From positions 36,909 through 74,182 of the forward strand of contig PMTR01000081.1 in the NCBI GenBank assembly GCA_003167255.1: 37,274 bases of DNA. Direction: 5' to 3'. Source of the DNA: Bryobacterales bacterium. GTDB taxonomy: Bacteria > Acidobacteriota > Terriglobia > Bryobacterales > Bryobacteraceae. Position numbers and translations under genes: made by a program. Shown piece by piece: positions 12,937-35,343 of the stretch (positions are counted from its first letter, which is position 1; every line of letters starts with the position of its first letter). The notes beneath the pieces are model-generated. The model had not been told where the DNA came from, made no database searches, and saw nothing but the letters and a program-made list of their open reading frames with translations.

Positions 12937-15225
12937 TTACGCCGTGGGAGAGAGGTCCCTTCTCCACACACTGCGCAACGCGCCGAGCGTGATGGGCAGG
13001 GCGCCGGCGAAGAGGAAGACCATATCCCCCACCATGCGCAGCCATTCCAGTTTGTGGTAGGCGCCGCTCATCAGGAATGTCAGGCGGCGCGCGTGCCAAT
13101 ACCCGTTGGCAATGGAATCCCAGAGCTGGATTACTCCTCCGGGGAACAGATCCAGGACGATCATGAGCGCGAGGCCCACATTAGCACCCCAGAAGCCCAC
13201 CCGGACGAACTTCTCCGTCCCCTTCCATGTGGCGTCGGATTGCATGGCCCTCAAGCAGAAGATGAGAACTGCCAAGGCCAACATCCCAAAGACGCCAAAC
13301 AGTGCGGCGTGTCCGTGATTGGGGGTGAGCGTCGTGCCCACCTCGAAGTAAGACACGATCGGCAGGTTGATCAGGAAACCGAAGATCCCTGCGCCGACGA
13401 AGTTCCAGACACCCACGGCCATGAGGAAGTAGATGGACCACTTCTGGCCCCAGGCCAGATCGTGGCCGCACGCGGAGCACTGCGCCTTCCTCAGCTTGAT
13501 GAAATCCCAGGCGTCCAGAGTCAGAAGCGTCAGAGGTACAACTTCCAGAGCGGAGAAGCACGAGGCCAGGCCCATGTTGAGCGTTCCCTGGCCTGTGAAG
13601 TACCAATGGTGGCCTGTGCCGATGATCCCGCCGCTGAGATACAGGATGGCATCCAGATAGATCAGACGCGTGGCGCTCTTGGTGCTGACCACGCCCATCT
13701 GGTGGAACATGATGGCCACCAGCACCGTCGCGAAGAGTTCGAAGAATCCCTCCACCCAAAGATGGATGATCCAGAAACGCCAGTTGTCGATGACGGCGAA
13801 GTTTGTGTGAGGGCCATACAAAAGCGCGGGCAGATAGAAGACAGGGATAGCCACGGCCGTGTACAGAAAGAGCGAGGACAGTTCGCGCTTTTCAGGGTTC
13901 TTGAAGGCGGGCTTGAGCGCCCGAAACATCAGAAACAGCCAGAAGAGGAGGCCACCTGCCAGCAGGTATTGCCAGACCCGCCCGAGGTCCAGGTACTCGG
14001 AACCCTGGTGACCGAACCAGAACCAGAGCTGCCCCAGCTTGTCGTTGATGCCGAGGGACTCGCCTGCCAGGCTGCCGGCGACCACCACCACCAGCGCCCC
14101 GAGCAGTGCGTAGACGCCGGTCTTCTGGTGTCTGGGCTCCTCGCCACCGACCCACGACGCCAGGAAAAGGCCGCCGCCCACCCAGGCCGTCGCGATCCAG
14201 AAGATGGCGAGTTGCAGGTGCCAGGTGCGCGCCAGGGTGTAGGGCAGCCAGCGGGCGATGTCGTGCCCGTAAAAGCCTCCTGTCTCCACCCGATAGTGGG
14301 CGAGCACGCCTCCCAGGAATGACTGCGCCAGGAACAGGAGGGCCACGATGCCGAAGAACCATCCCGTAGCCCACTGGCTGGGCGTGAGCTTCAAAGCAGG
14401 GGGAGCGGAGTGCATCACATGGGAGCCGGCGCCCTCGCCCTTCCAGCCCAAGTAGTCGAACTTGCCGACGACGAAGAGGATCAAACCCAACCCTGAGAGG
14501 AGGGTGATGAGACTCAAGGCGCTCCAAACATAGGCCTCGGTGGAAGGACGGTTTCCCGCGATGGGCTCGTAGGGCCAGTTGTTGGTGTATGAGTAATCCT
14601 TCCCAGGGCGATTCGCCGTTGTGGCCCAGGCCGCCCAAGCGAAGTAGGCGGTCAGAGCTTTCAGCTCGGCGGGGTTCCGAATATAGTTGGCCGGCAGCCC
14701 GGGAGCGGCGTCCTTCCTGGTGAAGTAGTCGCTCCATTCGGGAAGCTGTGTGTGGTAGGCAGCCACCTCGCCTGACGAGAGCCGGAGAGTTCGCGAGGCT
14801 GGTTCGTACCGGTTTCGCTTAAGCAACGTCACGGTCCGCGCAGATACGACGCTCCGCTCGTCCGCCGAGAGCTGCGCGAAGAGTTTGCCGTACTTCCCGG
14901 TCGCGATCGTGTCCAGGGTCACCTCGCCGAGCCTATGCAGGTACTCCGCGCTGTAATCGGGACCCAGGTAAGCCCCATGACCCCACAGACTCCCGTGCTC
15001 CATGAGACCGTACTTGAGGAAGACCTCCTGGCCCCTTTGGATGTCGGCTCCGGTAAACACCACAGTTCCCGTTCCGTCTACGGCCTGCTCGGGGATCGGT
15101 GGAGCGTTGGTGTAGGTCAGGACCGTAACCAAGGATAGAACCGAGAAGCCAGCGATCATTACGAGGATGGCCGAGTGTCTCCACCACGGAGAAAGACTGG
15201 TAGCGCCGGCAGACGCGTCGATCAT
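12937..15225 (-). CDS. norZ: Quinol-dependent nitric oxide reductase (qNOR)
   Basis: The 762-residue integral membrane protein matches single-subunit qNOR in length and order. It has an N-terminal transmembrane helix, a periplasmic cytochrome-c-like domain lacking CXXCH (about 40-215, with GSLWGHGAYLGPDY), then about twelve NorB-type helices. Key segments are TWHLQLAIFWIATAWVGGG, HLWVEGFFELFATV, GGIIGTGHHWYFTG with the histidine pair, and TPNHGHAALFGVFG. It reduces two NO to N2O with quinol electrons, in the cytoplasmic membrane. ATG 15225 has AAGGGG seven bases upstream; a TTG at 15240 is the longer alternative but overlaps that site. No other denitrification gene is present, so NO detoxification is likelier than respiration. 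Upstream lie a palindromic site and the cupin gene. Confidence 0.95.
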   Translation of the reverse strand: MIDASAGATSLSPWWRHSAILVMIAGFSVLSLVTVLTYTNAPPIPEQAVDGTGTVVFTGADIQRGQEVFLKYGLMEHGSLWGHGAYLGPDYSAEYLHRLGEVTLDTIATGKYGKLFAQLSADERSVVSARTVTLLKRNRYEPASRTLRLSSGEVAAYHTQLPEWSDYFTRKDAAPGLPANYIRNPAELKALTAYFAWAAWATTANRPGKDYSYTNNWPYEPIAGNRPSTEAYVWSALSLITLLSGLGLILFVVGKFDYLGWKGEGAGSHVMHSAPPALKLTPSQWATGWFFGIVALLFLAQSFLGGVLAHYRVETGGFYGHDIARWLPYTLARTWHLQLAIFWIATAWVGGGLFLASWVGGEEPRHQKTGVYALLGALVVVVAGSLAGESLGINDKLGQLWFWFGHQGSEYLDLGRVWQYLLAGGLLFWLFLMFRALKPAFKNPEKRELSSLFLYTAVAIPVFYLPALLYGPHTNFAVIDNWRFWIIHLWVEGFFELFATVLVAIMFHQMGVVSTKSATRLIYLDAILYLSGGIIGTGHHWYFTGQGTLNMGLASCFSALEVVPLTLLTLDAWDFIKLRKAQCSACGHDLAWGQKWSIYFLMAVGVWNFVGAGIFGFLINLPIVSYFEVGTTLTPNHGHAALFGVFGMLALAVLIFCLRAMQSDATWKGTEKFVRVGFWGANVGLALMIVLDLFPGGVIQLWDSIANGYWHARRLTFLMSGAYHKLEWLRMVGDMVFLFAGALPITLGALRSVWRRDLSPTA

Positions 15226-15246
15226 GATATGCCCCTTCAATTTCTG

Positions 15247-17776: not shown

Positions 17777-19708
17777 CTACCGCGCGGCGCGTTTCGGCGG
17801 CTCGAGCGAATCGGCCAGCGCGATGGCGGCCCAGGAACTGGCGGCGGCGGAAATAAATTGATCGGAGCCGTGCGGGAAGCCGGCGTCGAAGTAGGGCTGG
17901 AAGCCGAAGGCGCGCGAACGCACGAACCAGGTGCCGTCTTCAAGTTGCGTGCGGAGCAGGTAGCGTATGCCTTTCTGATAGCTAACGGCGGCGACGGACA
18001 GGCCGCCGGCGGTTTGCAGGGCATGCAAGGCGTGGCCTGTGGCGTAAGCGTCCGGGTCCATGCCGGGCAGTTGGGCCCAGCCGCCGTCCTCACGTTGGAG
18101 GGCGAGCAGACGATCGCGGACGGACGGGATTTCCGGCGCCATGCCGGCCCAGTGCATTCCAAGCAGCAGGAACGCCAGGGCCTGGGTATCCTTGGGTTGC
18201 GCTTTGCGGAAGAAATCCCGGGCGCGCTCCAGGCGCGACTTCAGTTCGTCGCGACGGCCCAGGGGCAGGTAAACGCCGAGGCCGCGAACCGCCAGCGCAG
18301 TGTACTTAATGACGCTGTTGCCCAGAGGCGGCCGGATGTCGTCGATGTTCCAGGAGCCATCGGCGCGCTGCGAGTGGGCCAGGCAAAGCGCCGCGGCATC
18401 GGTGTTGCGGTTGGGCTGGAAACCCTCGTCGGCCAGGCTGAAGAGGCCGTAGGAAACGTTGGCTACGAAGCCCGGCACCACGTGGCAGTTGCCTTGCATG
18501 AGGCTTTCGCGAAAAGGCGTCCACATCGCCATAGTGGCCTTGTCGGGGTGGGTGGCGAGCTCGGCATCGACGGGGATACCCTGCGCCCGGGCGTGGGCCA
18601 CAGCCATGGCGGGTAGCGACTGGGCGTGGCAGGAGATGCAGCCGAAGCGGCCGAAGAACGCCTTGCTGATGGGCTGAAGGCGCGGAAACAGCGTTTCCAG
18701 GGCGGCGCGGGCGTTGCGCGGCTCAGCCACCGGCGCGGGCGGCGGCGGGAGCGGGGTGGATTTGGCGCCGGCGCTCCGTAAGTATTTCGAGACTTCGGTC
18801 TCTCCTTGAGTGAGAGCCCAATCGAGCACGGTACGGCCCTTCTGGTCGCGCGCGTTGACGTCGGCGCCTTTTTGAACCAGCATGCGGATCAGTTCCAGGT
18901 CGGGCGTGTCGGCGGCGGCGGCCATCATGAGGGGCGTAAAGCCGCGATCGCTTTTCACGTTGGGATTGGCGCCGTGGTCGAGCAGAATCTGGATGGGTGG
19001 GGTAGCGCCCGCAAAAGCCAGAAGACCCATTGCGGGCACGTGAGCCGATTCCATTTTGATCAGTTCGTTGGGGCTTGCGCCCAGGCGGAAAACGGTGGCG
19101 ATGAGGTCCTTGTCGCCGGAACCGAGCGCCGTAAGCACGGGCTCGTCACCCAGTTGCTCCAGCCGCGTGCATTCCAGGCCGGCGGTGCGGGCGGCTTGCT
19201 CCAGGGCGGCGTCTCCCTGTCCGTACGCGATCCGCAGGAATCCGACGCCGTCTTTATCGACGGCTTTGGGATCGGCGCCGTGGGATAGCAGCAGGCGCAC
19301 GGTCTCGATATTGCCGGGGCGGCGAGCGGCCAGCAGCAGGGCGCTCTGGCCGTCGTCGGTGCGGATGTTGACGCCGGCGTTCTTGGAGAGCAACAGCTTG
19401 ACCTTTTCCGGTTCCGGGCTGGCCCACATGAGGGCGGTGGCATGGACTTGGTTCACACCGTCCACGTCGGCGCCCTTGGTGATGAGCAGCCGCATGCATT
19501 CGGGCGAGGAGAATGCTGCCGCGTACATGAGGGCGGACGCACCGGTCTCGTCGTGGGAATTCGGATCGGCATTGTCGCGCAGCAGTTCGTGGACGGCGGA
19601 GACGTCGCCCTTCCGAATCGCCGCGAGCAGTTTAGGACCCAGGCCGTCCGTCTGTGCAGCCAACCCCGCAGTAAACAGAATCCAGAGGAATAGCACTCCG
19701 TTGCGCAT
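17777..19708 (-). CDS. Secreted ankyrin-repeat protein with CXXCH motif and cyclase-like alpha-toroid domain
   Basis: The 643-residue protein has a signal peptide (MRNGVLFLWILFTAGLAAQ). About seven ankyrin repeats fill 24-315 (for example DETGASALMYAAAF, DRGFTPLMMAAAA, GADVNARDQKGRTVLDWAL). After a proline-rich linker (318-330) comes a helical domain with CISCH (C357-H361), a canonical covalent haem c attachment motif. Three DGSW/DGGW/DGTW repeats (450, 541, 591) are typical of squalene-cyclase/prenyltransferase-like toroids. Start ATG 19708 has GGAGG seven bases upstream. It is a stand-alone gene. The likely picture is a periplasmic haem-bearing toroid with an ankyrin binding platform; enzymatic activity is not shown. 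The catalytic DXDD of squalene-hopene cyclase is not visible, so terpene cyclisation is not supported. Confidence 0.85.
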   Translation of the reverse strand: MRNGVLFLWILFTAGLAAQTDGLGPKLLAAIRKGDVSAVHELLRDNADPNSHDETGASALMYAAAFSSPECMRLLITKGADVDGVNQVHATALMWASPEPEKVKLLLSKNAGVNIRTDDGQSALLLAARRPGNIETVRLLLSHGADPKAVDKDGVGFLRIAYGQGDAALEQAARTAGLECTRLEQLGDEPVLTALGSGDKDLIATVFRLGASPNELIKMESAHVPAMGLLAFAGATPPIQILLDHGANPNVKSDRGFTPLMMAAAADTPDLELIRMLVQKGADVNARDQKGRTVLDWALTQGETEVSKYLRSAGAKSTPLPPPPAPVAEPRNARAALETLFPRLQPISKAFFGRFGCISCHAQSLPAMAVAHARAQGIPVDAELATHPDKATMAMWTPFRESLMQGNCHVVPGFVANVSYGLFSLADEGFQPNRNTDAAALCLAHSQRADGSWNIDDIRPPLGNSVIKYTALAVRGLGVYLPLGRRDELKSRLERARDFFRKAQPKDTQALAFLLLGMHWAGMAPEIPSVRDRLLALQREDGGWAQLPGMDPDAYATGHALHALQTAGGLSVAAVSYQKGIRYLLRTQLEDGTWFVRSRAFGFQPYFDAGFPHGSDQFISAAASSWAAIALADSLEPPKRAAR

Positions 19709-19815
19709 CCCTTAGCCTCCAATGTGTCCAAGAGTATAGCAAGGACAGTCACCCAACCTGGTAGTATCCTTAGTACACTATTAACTTCAGAGGACTAGCG
19801 CGATGACGTGGCGCC

Positions 19816-22973: not shown

Positions 22974-23447
22974 TCACTGAATCGCTGCGATCCGCCGCAT
23001 CACGGATTTGACCTTGCGGCCATACGCGGCGTCGGGGTTGTACGTAGCCAAAATCTTGTCCAGGCTCTTGTCCCGGTATAGGCCGGAGTGGGCCAGGCGA
23101 TAGCCGACAGTATAGATGCCTGCGGCGGGGGTGGAGAACTGCGCGCGGCCGGAATCCCAGCCGAAAATATTGTTATTCCGCCCGGCTTTCCCACCGGTGG
23201 ATTCCACGTACGAGATGCTGGGGAGCAGGCGCCAGTCCAGTGTATAGGTATCGGCAACATCGAGGAACTCGTCGGCATACCGGCTGGCCGGGCAACTGCC
23301 CTTATCGAAAAACTGATGAAGCGCAGCATAACGGGGATCGAGGCGGTAATCCGGGGCCGGGGCACGGTGGATCTTCTGCGGCGATAAAACCACCGGCAGC
23401 GATGCCATACCGAACATCACCAAACCTCCGGACAATAGTCTTCTCAT
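22974..23447 (-). CDS. Secreted glucosaminidase/lysozyme-like protein
   Basis: The 157-residue protein has a signal peptide (MRRLLSGGLVMFGMASLPVVLS) and one domain resembling the mannosyl-glycoprotein endo-N-acetylglucosaminidase/lysozyme-like group. LLPSISYVESTGGKAG holds the probable catalytic glutamate E82, followed by NNNIFGWDSG and a PAAGIYTVGYRLAHS helix. Family members cut the glycan strands of peptidoglycan, so a periplasmic cell-wall hydrolase is the likely role. AAAGGA lies nine bases before ATG 23447. The gene has its own promoter and an unusually long leader upstream. A lytic transglycosylase activity is the main alternative. Confidence 0.72.
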   Translation of the reverse strand: MRRLLSGGLVMFGMASLPVVLSPQKIHRAPAPDYRLDPRYAALHQFFDKGSCPASRYADEFLDVADTYTLDWRLLPSISYVESTGGKAGRNNNIFGWDSGRAQFSTPAAGIYTVGYRLAHSGLYRDKSLDKILATYNPDAAYGRKVKSVMRRIAAIQ

Positions 23448-23736: not shown

Positions 23737-24459
23737 TTAGCGCGGTTCCAAGGCGACCGCGCGGGGGAACAGAATGTTGTTCTCCAGGTGGATATGCTGG
23801 TGGAGGTCGCGCTCCATTCGCTCGAGCTCGAAATAGAACGCCCGGAACGTGTTGCAGGCGTCTTCCGGCGGCGTGTAGCCGGCGGTAAGCTGGCGCATGC
23901 TGCCCAGCGCCTGGCCGGCGGAATCGTGCTCCGCCACCATCACGCGGATGGGATTGCGGACCGATCCGCAATGGAATTCGCGGGCTCCCGGGCCGCTGCC
24001 TTCTTCCAGGGACCGGATCAGCGGGAACAGAATCAGCTCTTCCTTCATGAGGTGGCCTTCCAGCTCCTCCTTCATCGCCCGGAAGGTTTGGGCCAGGGGT
24101 AGCAGCATGGTGCCGTGGCGCGCGGAATGTTTGGCCAGGATCTTCTCCAGCATGCCATCCAGGCGGGGAAGCTGCGTCTTCATGTAGACGTGGTGAGTGC
24201 TGGCGATATGGTCGATCAGCAGGTTCAGCGGGGTGGATTGCCAGTCCGGCTGAGGTGCCGCGGTCGAAGCCGGGTGAGCCTGGCCTTCGATTTCCTCCAG
24301 CACGGCGGCTGGATCGAGACCGCGCGTGCGGCAAACCTGGTCGAAAGCCTGCCCGCCGCCGCAACAATAATCGATGCCGAACCGTTCGAAAACTTGTGCG
24401 CATCCAGGCATCCGGGCGGCCAGTTCGCCAACCGTGATTTCCGTAGAAAGTATGCTCAT
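23737..24459 (-). CDS. ric: Iron-sulfur cluster repair di-iron protein RIC (YtfE/ScdA)
   Basis: The 240-residue protein begins with the DUF542 domain (ITVGELAARMPGCAQVFERFGIDYCCGGG, cysteines C32-C33). It continues with a hemerythrin-like four-helix domain (about 75-235) that supplies His and Glu di-iron ligands in LIDHIASTHHVYMK, HLMKEELILFP, VAEHDSAG and HQHIHLENNILFP. RIC restores iron-sulfur clusters damaged by nitric oxide or peroxide, in the cytosol. ATG 24459 fits the family start and lacks a ribosome site, suggesting a leaderless message. Its upstream palindrome matches the one at norZ, tying it to the NO response. It is monocistronic here. Confidence 0.95.
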   Translation of the reverse strand: MSILSTEITVGELAARMPGCAQVFERFGIDYCCGGGQAFDQVCRTRGLDPAAVLEEIEGQAHPASTAAPQPDWQSTPLNLLIDHIASTHHVYMKTQLPRLDGMLEKILAKHSARHGTMLLPLAQTFRAMKEELEGHLMKEELILFPLIRSLEEGSGPGAREFHCGSVRNPIRVMVAEHDSAGQALGSMRQLTAGYTPPEDACNTFRAFYFELERMERDLHQHIHLENNILFPRAVALEPR

Positions 24460-24465
24460 GTCTTG

Positions 24466-24507
24466 AGTTTGGCGCCAGCGGGAAACCATGTCGGTGACTG
24501 GAGTCAC
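24466..24507 (-). promoter_or_regulatory. ric promoter: CRP/FNR-type palindrome GTGACTCCAGTCAC (24494-24507)
   Basis: The palindrome is centred exactly 41.5 bases upstream of the A of the ric ATG. With a leaderless start at that A, this is a class II activator position. The -12 to -7 hexamer is then CAAACT, matching TATAAT at only three of six bases, as expected for an activator-dependent promoter. Reading toward the gene it shares CCGTGACTNCNGTCAC with the norZ site. The regulator is outside the window. Confidence 0.55.
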
Positions 24508-28037: not shown

Positions 28038-31000
28038 CTACCGGTTTGGTAATTCCTGAAGTCCAGTTTTCGGTTCGCCGTTCGCGCCCGCGCGGGCGTG
28101 TGCGCGGACCTCTTCACCGACATGCCGCAGCGATTTCAGCACGGCCGGCCAATCCTCCAGATGGGAGGCGAAAATCTCCTCCACCAGTTTTTGAGTCCAT
28201 TCGGGAATCCGCACATTGAGTTGCGATGGCGGCAGGCTGAGCTCGTCGGCCAGGGCCGCCCAATAAAGCGTATTGGATTCCCAGCTCTCCGCCATAATGC
28301 GGCTGGAGTATCCCATTAGGGTGGGAAACGTGCGAAGGTTCAGCAACTCCGGCTGATAGGAATTCGCCAGCGTCGGCTTGGGTGTGCCAAAAGCCCGCGA
28401 AATGGCGGCGTAATTGACTTCTTGCGGCGAGGCTTCCGCCAGTCGCCGGAGTTCGGCCAGCAGGCAGGAAGGATCGCCGGCGCGGCGCGATGCCAGGTCG
28501 CGCGCCACGTCGAACAGTTCCGAGGGAGTCACTTGATTGACCGCCTCCGCGCCGTTGCCTTGCGCCAGAAGCTCCGTGACCGCGCTGCTGCGTACCGGCG
28601 CGGCGACTTTCGCGAGCGCTTCGGCCACCTGATTGCGAATCCCCTCATCCAGCGCCGCTTCGCCGAACAACTCGCGTCCATAGCGCAGGTGCAGGCCCAC
28701 CCAGTGCAACTGGGAAGGCGTCACGGTCCACCACCGGGGAGTCTTGGCGCTGAGAATCATCTGGGGAACCAGGTCGCCCCAGATGAGCGCCTGCGTGTGG
28801 GTCGGGATGAGAAAGTTCTGTTCCGCTTCCGCCAGCGCATAGGGCAGCGCGGAGAGCGACCCCACCAGGCGGCCGCCGCCGTTCGACGGCCATCCCGTTC
28901 CGAACATTTCCGTGGTGCGCCAGGTAGTCGGCGTAGCCGGCATTCCCAGGAAATCGTGGCTACGCACGAAAAGCGGGTTGGTGTAGAGGATCTGTGCCCC
29001 CGGCGGCGCGTAGTAAGCGTAGTTGAAGGCCAGCAACGTATCGCGCAGCAGCGGGGCGAGCTGCGCGCGGATCTCTTTCAGCTTCTCGCCGTCGGCGCCG
29101 GCGCGTTCCACCGCCGCCCGCAGGTTGAGCTTGCGCTCCGCGTCGATGTGGCGATCGGTCCAATAGCCGTAGCCCATGGCGTTCTGTTCGTTGGCAGTCA
29201 ACGGGGCCCGCGGCAGGGGAATCTCGTTGATGCGGCTGGCGAGCTTGGCCACCAGGGTGGTATTCAACTTGGCGCCTTTGGAAACGCTCTCCAGATTGTC
29301 GGCGAGATCGAAAAGCGTTTCCAGCGGAATCACGCGCTGCGATTCCAGAATGCGCCTCATGTCCTGCGCCATTTCTTCACGCGCATCGGCGCTCGCGGTC
29401 TCCGGTCCGGTGAGCAGCCCAACCACGCGTTCCTGCGGCGCGGCGGCCGCCGATCCGGGGGCGGCGCCCAGCAGTTTCTGCACGGCCGCGCGTCCCGCAT
29501 CGAACAGATCGCGATTGCTGTGCAACTGGGCGAACGGGCTCACCATGGCCGCGAACGTCTCATCGGCCTGCGCTTCCGCAATGGTCTGCTGCCGGACCAG
29601 AATCTGCCACAATCCGGTCACCGACTGGAACGTCCCGGCGACATCCGCCTTGAAGGCCTGGTCGCGCATGTGGCCGATGTTCTCCGCCGTATCGAGGAAC
29701 TGGATGATGGAGTGGTCGCTCAAGCTGCGGGATTCGGCGAACAGCGTGTACTGGCTGCCGTAGTCGTGATAGGCGCGGGCCAGTTTATCTACGGTGGCGG
29801 GGTCGAGCGGCTTGGCGCGGCCGCGATCCAGGTCGGTGATCGCCATGAAGATTTTCAGCGGCTCGTTCTCGACGCTCTTGCGGCACAGCGCGAACAGCGC
29901 TTCCAGCACGTCGTCGGGCTCTTTCCAGGTGGTAGCCAGGCGCGTCAGCTTGCCGTCGTACTTCCCCTGCGGGTGGTTGACGAAGAGCGTCTTCCAGACC
30001 TCCAGGTTCCCTGGGATATGCGGCTTGCCGTCCGCATTCATCTGCAGACGCGTGGTGAACAGCATCATGTCGGTGTTGGAGCGGAAGACCGGCCGAGCCG
30101 GCCCGGGGCTGGTGATGCGGCCGCGCACCGCGGTGTAGAAGCGCTTCATGCGAACCGGGTCAGTGAGGTATTCCTCGACCGGCCCGTGAATCCGCGCTAA
30201 GGCGTCGTACAGGCTGGCCAGCCAGCCGTCGTCTTTAGCCAACAGCTTGTCGAAGAAATCGGTGCCCTTGTCCGGGGAGGCGCCCGTCAACTCGGCCCAC
30301 GCCGCGGCCGACCGCGCGCCGCCCGGCACCATCGCCTTGCCGTTGCGGATTTCAAACATTCCACCGAAAAAATCGAGCACATGAGAAAATGCTTTGAGTC
30401 GCGTGTAGGGAACCGCGGTGCGAAGCTCGCCGGCGGTGGCGCGGTCCAGCTTGGCGAGGCCCAAATACAAGCGGCACTGCGCCGGATCTGCGATGAGCGA
30501 TTCCAGGAAGTCGCCGGGTTCCTTGTCCTTGGCGCCCCCGAACCAGTATTCCGTTCCGAACAGTACCGGGACCATGGTGGGGTGGAAATCGTACAAGAAG
30601 GGGCGGTTGGTCCGCAAGGCCTGCTCGAGCCGGTTGAGCGGAAACCCGGAATCCGTGGTCAGGAAGGCCCGTGCCGCGTTGACGGTTTCAAGCACCACTT
30701 CGGCCCCGCAACCGCCGCGCATGCGGAATCCGAGGATGCGCAACAGCTCCGCCACCGTGGGTGAATCGCAGTTCTCGATCTTGATTGCCTCGGCGTCGCC
30801 GGCCAGCTTTTCGAGTTCGCGCGCCTGTGAGATGTAGCGGTGCACCAGCTTCAGGTATTCGGTTTGTTCCAGGGCTTCGTTGCTGTGGGACGCCTGGTAG
30901 CCGTTGGTCACCACGTTGCGGGCGAGCGCCGGCAGAATGTCATCGGGGCCGGCGTCGGGTGAAATGGCGGCCATCCGGGCGAAAGAGCGCAACGGTCCCG

Positions 31001-31442
31001 GAATCGGCGCGGTGGCTCCAGCCGGTGCGCTGGTGGACGCCGGTGGGGGGACGCTCGCCAGCGCGAGGCTCTTGCCGGTTGCCGTGCGGTAGGCTTCGGC
31101 GTCGCGCGCGGCGGCTTCGCGGTCGCCCGCCAGAAGATCGAGCGCCGTCAGGCGCTGGGCGATGATTCCGGCGCGGGCTTTGTTCCCCCCGCTCGCCAGC
31201 GCGGCCAGCAGCCGGGAATAGGCTTCGCGGCTGCCGGGGTCGCCATACTGGTCGAGGAATTCAGCGTACGCGTTCAGCGCGGGGATGCTGTTGGGCTGTG
31301 CCTCGACGGCCTGGGCCAAGGCGGCGCGGGCGCCCGCTACCTCGCCGGCTGCCTCCATTTCGCGAGCCTGATTCTGAGCACCGTTCAGAGCTGGTGACGC
31401 CAGTGCCAGCCCGAATACCGCCACAGCCGTAAAACGCTTCAT
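28038..31442 (-). CDS. Large secreted protein of unknown function, 1134 aa
   Basis: I do not recognise this family. A signal peptide (MKRFTAVAVFGLALASPALNG) is followed by TPR-like helices at about 25-115 and a low-complexity Ala/Pro/Ser linker (128-150). About 980 residues of mainly alpha-helical sequence rich in Ala and Leu follow, with aromatic patches such as FLYDFHPTMVPVLFGTEYWFGG and AFNYAYYAPPGAQILYTNP. No catalytic motif, zinc site or membrane segment stands out. Start ATG 31442 has GGAGGG at six bases. It is the first gene of an operon with the VWA protein and faces the TPR lipoprotein, so all three may belong to one envelope complex; that is inference. Confidence 0.85.
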   Translation of the reverse strand: MKRFTAVAVFGLALASPALNGAQNQAREMEAAGEVAGARAALAQAVEAQPNSIPALNAYAEFLDQYGDPGSREAYSRLLAALASGGNKARAGIIAQRLTALDLLAGDREAAARDAEAYRTATGKSLALASVPPPASTSAPAGATAPIPGPLRSFARMAAISPDAGPDDILPALARNVVTNGYQASHSNEALEQTEYLKLVHRYISQARELEKLAGDAEAIKIENCDSPTVAELLRILGFRMRGGCGAEVVLETVNAARAFLTTDSGFPLNRLEQALRTNRPFLYDFHPTMVPVLFGTEYWFGGAKDKEPGDFLESLIADPAQCRLYLGLAKLDRATAGELRTAVPYTRLKAFSHVLDFFGGMFEIRNGKAMVPGGARSAAAWAELTGASPDKGTDFFDKLLAKDDGWLASLYDALARIHGPVEEYLTDPVRMKRFYTAVRGRITSPGPARPVFRSNTDMMLFTTRLQMNADGKPHIPGNLEVWKTLFVNHPQGKYDGKLTRLATTWKEPDDVLEALFALCRKSVENEPLKIFMAITDLDRGRAKPLDPATVDKLARAYHDYGSQYTLFAESRSLSDHSIIQFLDTAENIGHMRDQAFKADVAGTFQSVTGLWQILVRQQTIAEAQADETFAAMVSPFAQLHSNRDLFDAGRAAVQKLLGAAPGSAAAAPQERVVGLLTGPETASADAREEMAQDMRRILESQRVIPLETLFDLADNLESVSKGAKLNTTLVAKLASRINEIPLPRAPLTANEQNAMGYGYWTDRHIDAERKLNLRAAVERAGADGEKLKEIRAQLAPLLRDTLLAFNYAYYAPPGAQILYTNPLFVRSHDFLGMPATPTTWRTTEMFGTGWPSNGGGRLVGSLSALPYALAEAEQNFLIPTHTQALIWGDLVPQMILSAKTPRWWTVTPSQLHWVGLHLRYGRELFGEAALDEGIRNQVAEALAKVAAPVRSSAVTELLAQGNGAEAVNQVTPSELFDVARDLASRRAGDPSCLLAELRRLAEASPQEVNYAAISRAFGTPKPTLANSYQPELLNLRTFPTLMGYSSRIMAESWESNTLYWAALADELSLPPSQLNVRIPEWTQKLVEEIFASHLEDWPAVLKSLRHVGEEVRAHARAGANGEPKTGLQELPNR

Positions 31443-34819: not shown

Positions 34820-35269
34820 TTAGTTCAATACCGCCTGTATTACCAGTCCGGCCGCTTTTCGCGCCGCCGCGCGCTCGGCCAGCTCGCTGATCGTGGCCTT
34901 TTGCAGAACCGCCACCAGCGATGCCTGCGCTTCCGCCCATACATCGTGGCCAGGGCACCACGCCTGCCGCGTACAGGAGTGTTCCGAAATGAGGCAGACG
35001 TTCAGCCGGATGCGGCCTTCGATCGCTTCCACTACCTCCAGCAGCGTCGCCGCCTGGTGTTCGCCCGGCAGCTCGAATCCGCCCGTGTTTCCCCGGTGCG
35101 ACACCACCAGCCCGCTCCGCGTCAAGCTCTGCAACACCTTGGACAGGAATTGCTCCGGACATTGCACCGCTTCCGCCAACTCCGACCGGCTGGCCCGTGT
35201 CCCCGGCGGCAGCCCTGCCATATGGATCATCACCCGTACCGCATAATCGGCGGCTCGTGTCAGTTGCAT
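34820..35269 (-). CDS. Rrf2-family transcriptional regulator with three cysteines
   Basis: The 149-residue winged-helix regulator starts MQLTRAADYAVRVMIHMA and has SRSELAEAVQCPEQFLSKVLQSL as its recognition region and SHRGNTGGFELP as its wing. Cysteines C92, C99 and C105 (CX6CX5C) occupy the cluster-ligand loop of IscR, NsrR and RirA, so it probably senses through an iron-sulfur cluster. The spacing differs by one residue from CX5CX5C (IscR) and from CX7CX5C (RirA). I chose ATG 35269 because it matches the family start. A perfect TATAAT ends seven bases upstream, implying a leaderless message. A GTG at 35296 is an alternative. It is divergent from the serine hydrolase gene. Confidence 0.9.
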   Translation of the reverse strand: MQLTRAADYAVRVMIHMAGLPPGTRASRSELAEAVQCPEQFLSKVLQSLTRSGLVVSHRGNTGGFELPGEHQAATLLEVVEAIEGRIRLNVCLISEHSCTRQAWCPGHDVWAEAQASLVAVLQKATISELAERAAARKAAGLVIQAVLN

Positions 35270-35270
35270 A

Positions 35271-35343
35271 TTCGGATTATAGGACTCTGATACCACGAAA
35301 AGGGGACAACCCCCTTTTTCCTCCCAAAGTCTGATAATCGAAA
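35271..35343. promoter_or_regulatory. Nested palindrome spanning the Rrf2 / serine hydrolase divergent promoter region
   Basis: The inner arms AAAAGGGG (35298-35305) and CCCCTTTT (35311-35318) pair perfectly. The outer arms 35271-35286 (TTCGGATTATAGGACT) and 35328-35343 (AGTCTGATAATCGAAA) pair with few mismatches around nearly the same centre. TATAAT toward Rrf2 and GATAAT toward the hydrolase lie in the outer arms. AAAGGAGG at 35341-35348 is the hydrolase ribosome site. This suits an operator for a dimeric regulator such as the adjacent Rrf2 protein. Confidence 0.5.

Follow-up and report, generated by a model that had tools for sequence, protein, structure and literature searches.

The locus and its product

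The window, by which we mean the whole 37,274-nucleotide stretch of DNA analysed here, contains an open reading frame of 643 codons that reads on the minus strand from 19708 to 17777, exactly the interval originally proposed. Frame 1 of the plus strand has four stops over the same interval. The gene and the features of its product are as follows (all on the minus strand).

17777..19708, minus strand: whole open reading frame, 643 amino acids, ankyrin platform plus CXXCH toroid (open reading frame and Pfam)
19716..19720, minus strand: Shine-Dalgarno sequence GGAGG, seven bases before the ATG (read from the sequence)
19652..19708, minus strand: signal peptide, residues 1-19, MRNGVLFLWILFTAGLAAQ (by eye)
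18770..19642, minus strand: ankyrin repeats, residues 23-313, nine helix pairs (Pfam and model)
17801..18721, minus strand: alpha/alpha toroid, residues 330-636, twelve main helices (model, fold search and profile)
18626..18640, minus strand: CXXCH, putative haem-attachment motif, C357-H361, predicted loop between toroid helices 1 and 2 (alignment, 87/87)
18326..18334, minus strand: R459-P460-P461 loop (R459 and P461 each 88/88)
18035..18052, minus strand: D553-A-Y-A-T-G558, start of an inner helix (T557 88/88)
17849..17926, minus strand: residues 595-620, candidate distal-ligand loop with R599, H613, Q617 and S620, before and at the start of the last toroid helix (alignment)

The product had been predicted to be secreted, and this is supported by a typical signal peptide; here and throughout, for the target as well as its relatives, signal peptides were judged by eye. 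C357-I-S-C-H361 and the three DG[SGT]W motifs (residues 450-453, 541-544 and 591-594) are indeed present in the translation. The original prediction also described about seven ankyrin repeats. Pfam bears out the repeats themselves, with Ank_2 scoring 126.9 bits against a cut-off of 27.3, while their number needs correction, the full-length AlphaFold2 model having nine ankyrin helix pairs within residues 23-312. Apart from ankyrin models, the only Pfam families in the target are cyclase-toroid models, and the target falls just below the cut-off of both (SQHop_cyclase_N, 24.8 against 26.2; SQHop_cyclase_C, 21.0 against 26.1). Prenyltrans, the protein prenyltransferase beta subunit model, is also below its cut-off (13 against 26.5), as is the NCBIfam hopene_cyclase model (22.8 against 431.1). 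No Pfam cytochrome domain (class I cytochrome c or PSCyt1) was found in the target up to an E value of 1, and sCache_heme (PF11845, Tll0287-like) has no Pfam match in it. A promoter scan of the window found no promoter-like site, and terminator-like sites occur at chance level.

The toroid and its relation to cyclases

The full-length model is weak at residues 319-369 and 587-643, and the best 50 PDB matches in a structure search with it are all of ankyrin type. Modelled alone, from a four-sequence alignment, the toroid gave twelve main helices with a pLDDT of 72 and a pTM of 0.78, a better model than the toroid part of the full-length one. VIA-align matched it to oxidosqualene, squalene and drimenyl-type cyclases with Z scores of 21 to 22.4 (256-289 residues, rmsd 3.2 to 4.1). 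The next matches, GH105 enzymes and complement domains, also reach Z 19-20, so the fold alone assigns no function. The complement-type thioester domain, whose thioester motif is GCGEQ, was considered and rejected, as the fold is similar (Z about 19) but GCGEQ occurs in 0 of 88 toroids.

A squalene-hopene cyclase profile matches the toroid at an E value of 1.8e-31, summed over several repeats, and a profile-profile comparison of the family against eight cyclases gave an alignment of 150 columns (probability 98.8%). On the basis of this profile comparison, shared descent of the toroid and the squalene cyclases is well supported, though the catalytic motif has been lost. The alpha/alpha toroid fold and the QxxDGxW motifs expected of a class II cyclase are both present in the target. 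The absence of a catalytic DXDD, pointed out originally for the target, extends to the whole family (0 of 88 aligned toroids, target included), as compared with true squalene cyclases of the same phylum, in which DXDD is present in 8/8 and CXXCH in 0/8. DxDT occurs somewhere in five of the 88, and the aligned inner-helix motif is mostly SDAYATG or close to it (exact in 38/88). Some relatives, unlike the target, pass the Pfam cyclase cut-off.

Conservation of the CXXCH motif

The haem proposal depended on conservation of CXXCH among homologues, and the motif is conserved in all 87 of the aligned toroids that reach the position. These come from 118 frame hits, reduced to 93 by removal of duplicates and to 88 by removal of five rows scoring below 100 bits; one of the 88 (L016) stops short of the motif, making the denominator 87. 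The 88 toroids are those in the fetched loci, a subset of all search matches. Among the five removed rows (two pieces of L093, L096, L116 and L117), L116 and one L093 piece have CXXCH, L096 has CFGRH in its place and looks decayed, and L117 and the other L093 piece have no CXXCH in the open frame. Identity to the target across the aligned family ranges from 33 to 89% among the matches listed, and 19 different CXXCH pentapeptides occur in the 87 toroids (CVSCH in 22, CISCH in 14, CNSCH in 11, and others). The two cysteines of the motif are the sole conserved cysteine columns in the family alignment. Given the composition of the toroid, chance would produce a CXXCH about 1.6e-5 times in 320 residues, and the motif was found in 5 of 1249 other stop-to-stop frames of at least 200 codons in the fetched loci.

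Beyond the ankyrin family, the wider searches returned 17 distinct proteins with CXXCH and 11 without, the latter being the eight true, DXDD-bearing squalene cyclases and three unclassified proteins (L143, L150 and L154). We aligned 16 relatives from other families of the phylum, chosen by hand from the 17 (L138, a short frame, was omitted); CXXCH is at the same place in 16/16, a count which, given the manual choice, shows spread and not rate. A Pfam ankyrin match was found in 0/16 (at E 0.05 for four and 0.001 for twelve). Ankyrin-free CXXCH toroids occur in several families of the phylum (L116, L118-L122, L129-L133, L138-L142, L144 and L149), in frames of approximately 250-680 amino acids and of at least three sequence types (CHNNGDxxRAL, CHTNGTY and CHTxxPYALARP).

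A 60-residue profile around the motif, searched against the PDB at E values up to 1, gave 30 matches, 28 of them to c-type cytochromes or cytochrome c peroxidases; the likeness is short and, copy by copy, weak, the top match being to a threefold repeat, each copy of which scores only 0.12. Pfam cytochrome models barely match single motif segments (FixO in 4/38, at best 0.0013), and the Tll0287-like model matches 1/38, at 0.064.

Distribution and domain architecture

A search with the toroid half covered 101 genomes of the host's family. Of these, 73 matched at E 1e-3 and, among the matches listed, 52 did so at E 1e-30 or better; a single genome gave as many as eight matches. Searches across the phylum, in 149 and 247 genomes, found shorter relatives in other families. 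Matches of E 1e-90 or better were seen in four of the 247, namely G000 and G024 in the host's family and G287 and G301 in two other families, the last two having PSCyt1-ankyrin-toroid members according to Pfam. No relative was found in viral contigs, and in plasmids there were seven records with partial matches, none covering 80%. All of these counts refer to the sampled genomes and fetched loci.

By architecture, the 88 toroids comprise 48 with the ankyrin-toroid arrangement, 26 with an extra N-terminal CXXCH domain, eight with the order reversed and six that are short. The classes were assigned by regular expression, and Pfam over all 88 frames gives equal totals, with ankyrins in 82 (41 + 41) and PSCyt1 in 26 (16 + 10). 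At E 0.001 the Pfam matches of these frames are dominated by ankyrin, cyclase-toroid and cytochrome c models, the exceptions being one TED_complement (2.9e-5), one HTH_upst_double_PIN and two Prenyltrans; neither these frames nor the target show a signalling output domain among their Pfam matches. Of the 26 PSCyt1-bearing members, 25 have an MPP upstream of the toroid, which we take to provide the usual methionine ligand. One PSCyt1-bearing protein is encoded in the host genome itself: L002, a paralogue 39% identical to the target over most of its length, scores 46.1 bits against a PSCyt1 cut-off of 22 and is the only PSCyt1 match of that genome.

The toroid-ankyrin order is found in L057, L061, L076, L080, L083, L092, L094 and L095, and Pfam confirmed it in the three that were scanned singly. 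These eight, together with one broken member, form one group in a quick tree (support 86); all trees here come from quick searches and were not bootstrapped. Three of the six short members belong to adjacent gene pairs, each consisting of a PSCyt1-ankyrin gene followed by a toroid gene:

L107:4657-6939
L077:4603-6906
L055:5989-8445

In 3/3 of these pairs Pfam recognises PSCyt1 and ankyrins in the first protein, the frame of which then reaches a stop, and the second is a toroid with what appears by eye to be its own signal peptide; we read the pairs as the fused form split by nature. The split pairs, taken with the fusions, indicate that toroid, ankyrin domain and cytochrome are separable exported parts which repeatedly occur together, and we regard this recurrent association as the best hint to function.

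Other arrangements were noted among the relatives. At L079:5807-10596, two family members stand in tandem and are followed by a DinB-superfamily protein, and L082, L106 and L108 have frames similar to the latter close to their toroid gene. In the same-genus orthologue (L098:5518-7815, also L005), the start of the ankyrin part is out of frame with the toroid, and there is a run of N near the 3' end, due either to decay or to an assembly error.

Invariant loops and a candidate second ligand

The motif was originally placed on the first helices of the toroid. This is the correct region, and the site itself is predicted by the model to be the loop between helices 1 and 2. Two further loops are invariant, one (R459-P-P) linking helices 5 and 6 and the other (R599 to Q617) helices 11 and 12, and each of the three joins an odd-numbered helix to an even-numbered one. 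We infer that these loops would share one face of the toroid, with the 1-2 and 11-12 loops as neighbours at ring closure, a reading based on alpha6/alpha6 topology and secondary structure and not on distances. All three are modelled with low confidence, the mean pLDDT of the CXXCH loop being about 43, which is what one would expect if a cofactor were absent from the model but would fit a thin alignment equally well.

No conserved histidine or methionine column other than H361 was found in the family alignment. Nevertheless, the loop that leads into the last helix has a histidine at position 613, 615 or 616 in 77 of 86 toroids (the variable-histidine loop of the target is at 17861-17872 of the window). 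Considering 613 and 615, both are histidine in 10 toroids, exactly one in 64 and neither in 12, the last compared with about 22 of 86 expected (Fisher p 6e-6, with relatedness ignored), and the quick tree implies 27 changes among the 613/615/616 labels. One explanation of this pattern might be a ligand or catalytic histidine that moves along the loop, and the histidine at 613, 615 or 616 is a candidate second axial ligand. The nine of 86 members with histidine at none of the three positions count against a strict need for it.

Gene neighbourhood

An all-against-all comparison of frames from 80 loci found no conserved partner. With the family and what are presumably its own antisense frames set aside, the widest neighbour group is a kinase-like frame in 10 of the 80. 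Ten hand-picked locus proteins, mostly neighbours, gave unrelated families, two of them having no family. Within the 37 kb of the window are three genes that share a nitric-oxide theme:

12937-15240, minus strand: nitric oxide reductase, with a cytochrome-c-like domain
23737-24507, minus strand: ScdA/hemerythrin protein
34820-35296, minus strand: Rrf2 regulator

The same-genus locus L098, the start of which excludes the reductase side, retains five of 14 nearby genes (those for M61, HIT, S1, a protein of 157 aa and the hemerythrin protein), and in the remaining fetched loci the sole neighbour match at 1e-20 is one amidase, at 33%. Two proteins of the window, at 28038-31442 (1134 aa) and 22974-23447 (157 aa), both on the minus strand, have no Pfam match at 1e-5. 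Elsewhere, a toroid gene lies directly upstream of a molybdopterin oxidoreductase gene (L086:4729-8961 and L090:3952-8043); this adjacency fits a redox role, and comes from two genomes of one genus and thus from a single lineage. The host genome has four matches over the cut-off to the cytochrome c assembly family PF01578.

Proposed function and alternatives

An invariant CXXCH in a family of toroids that appear, by eye, to be exported is most readily understood as a site of c-type haem attachment. The target is probably a haem protein of a kind not yet described, and not a cyclase, with haem binding putative. We consider it moderately likely that a squalene-cyclase-type toroid, retired from catalysis, serves here as the scaffold of an exported c-type haem protein, with the ankyrin repeats docking redox partners. 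The cell's cytochrome c assembly system would attach the haem, after export, to C357 and C360, with H361 as the proximal ligand. The haem would cap the mouth of the toroid, the former cyclase pocket, where it might be held by the invariant loops (R459, R599, Q617 and S620), and in most members the histidine of the 613-616 loop would ligate or approach it. The ankyrin domain would dock a partner protein, and the haem could then exchange electrons with a cytochrome, either fused at the N-terminus (26/88) or present as a separate adjacent exported protein (three genomes). The multiplication of paralogues may reflect different partners or substrates.

The suggestion that the protein is concerned with redox or gas sensing and not with terpene cyclization is partly supported, by the invariance of CXXCH and the loss of DXDD, and within that pair the evidence leans towards redox, since there is a cytochrome domain in 26/88 relatives and no signalling output domain. 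A gas or redox sensor, in which NO, CO or oxygen would bind to a labile or five-coordinate haem and the ankyrins would signal to a partner, is nonetheless the main rival to electron transfer. It would account for the want of a strictly conserved second ligand, it suits the three window genes with a nitric-oxide theme listed above, and it has a parallel in sCache_heme domains, which behave as NO sensors when fused to signalling modules, according to the excerpted text of PMC12889525. The same excerpt describes a stand-alone sCache_heme protein as redox-like, however, and neither the target nor the 88 family frames have a signalling output domain by Pfam. The neighbourhood, moreover, is poorly kept, with five of 14 nearby genes retained in the same-genus locus and one amidase at 33% elsewhere, and on balance we think a sensor unlikely.

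The CXXCH might instead carry no haem and serve as a metal site, or as a disulphide with a structural histidine, as could be argued from the shortness of the motif segment and the poor modelling of its loop. Yet there is no extra conserved cysteine or histidine column to complete a zinc or iron-sulphur site, and the histidine is as invariant as both cysteines, which a disulphide would not need; given also that the protein looks exported and that the genome encodes cytochrome c assembly proteins, this seems to us decidedly unlikely. It would be a long shot that a haem set over the pocket of the isoprenoid-cyclase fold makes the protein an exported oxidase, peroxidase or oxygenase acting on hydrophobic, perhaps isoprenoid, molecules, the ankyrins choosing substrates or partners and the PSCyt1 cytochrome relaying electrons or peroxide equivalents; if true, this would be a new class of haem enzyme descended from a cyclase that had lost its activity. 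That the protein is still active as a class II terpene cyclase, or processes isoprenoids in some other way, with the haem motif as an addition, is hardly credible. The fold and the profile similarity to squalene-hopene cyclases speak for it, but DXDD is found in 0/88 family toroids as opposed to 8/8 true cyclases of the phylum, which lack CXXCH, the Pfam scores of the target are under the curated cut-offs (though some relatives pass), and the protein looks exported. If haem is confirmed on the toroid, the so far unassigned paralogue expansion of these soil Acidobacteriota would be placed in redox biology.

Comparison with known systems

The combination of domains had been described as having no obvious assigned function, and no published description of an ankyrin/CXXCH-toroid protein was found in openly licensed papers, among the matches listed. 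With the squalene-hopene and oxidosqualene cyclases the family shares the alpha/alpha toroid, the QxxDGxW repeats and a TG inner-helix pattern; unlike them, it has a single toroid of approximately 300 amino acids with no DXDD, a CXXCH at helices 1-2 and an apparently exported product. PSCyt1 (PF07635), the planctomycete cytochrome c domain, is fused to the toroid in 26/88 relatives and missing from the target, and the toroid, in contrast to the stretch upstream with its MPP in 25 of those 26, has no conserved methionine. Cj1386, a Campylobacter ankyrin protein concerned with haem trafficking to catalase, is another bacterial ankyrin-repeat protein with a link to a haem protein; the comparison is by description only, and the excerpt of PMC4178425 mentions neither a toroid nor CXXCH.

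The nearest precedent is sCache_heme (DUF3365/Tll0287), in which, as set out in the sections of PMC12889525 consulted, insertion of a CXXCH fragment of cytochrome origin into a Cache fold has been proposed, so that there too a cytochrome-like CXXCH stands in a non-cytochrome extracytoplasmic fold. Those sections give conservation of the motif as 99% and 99.4% in two data sets, report measured NO binding for a signalling-associated member, and describe both stand-alone and cytochrome-fused forms, as in the toroid family (PMC12889525). The difference is one of fold, a Cache domain with no ankyrin repeats named in those sections (PMC12889525), as against a toroid in the target. The family described here lacks the motif that defines squalene cyclases and does not have the fold of a cytochrome, and it poses the question of whether a cyclase fold can hold a covalent haem; if haem is confirmed, the toroid would join Cache as a fold turned into a c-type haem protein by means of a short CXXCH segment.
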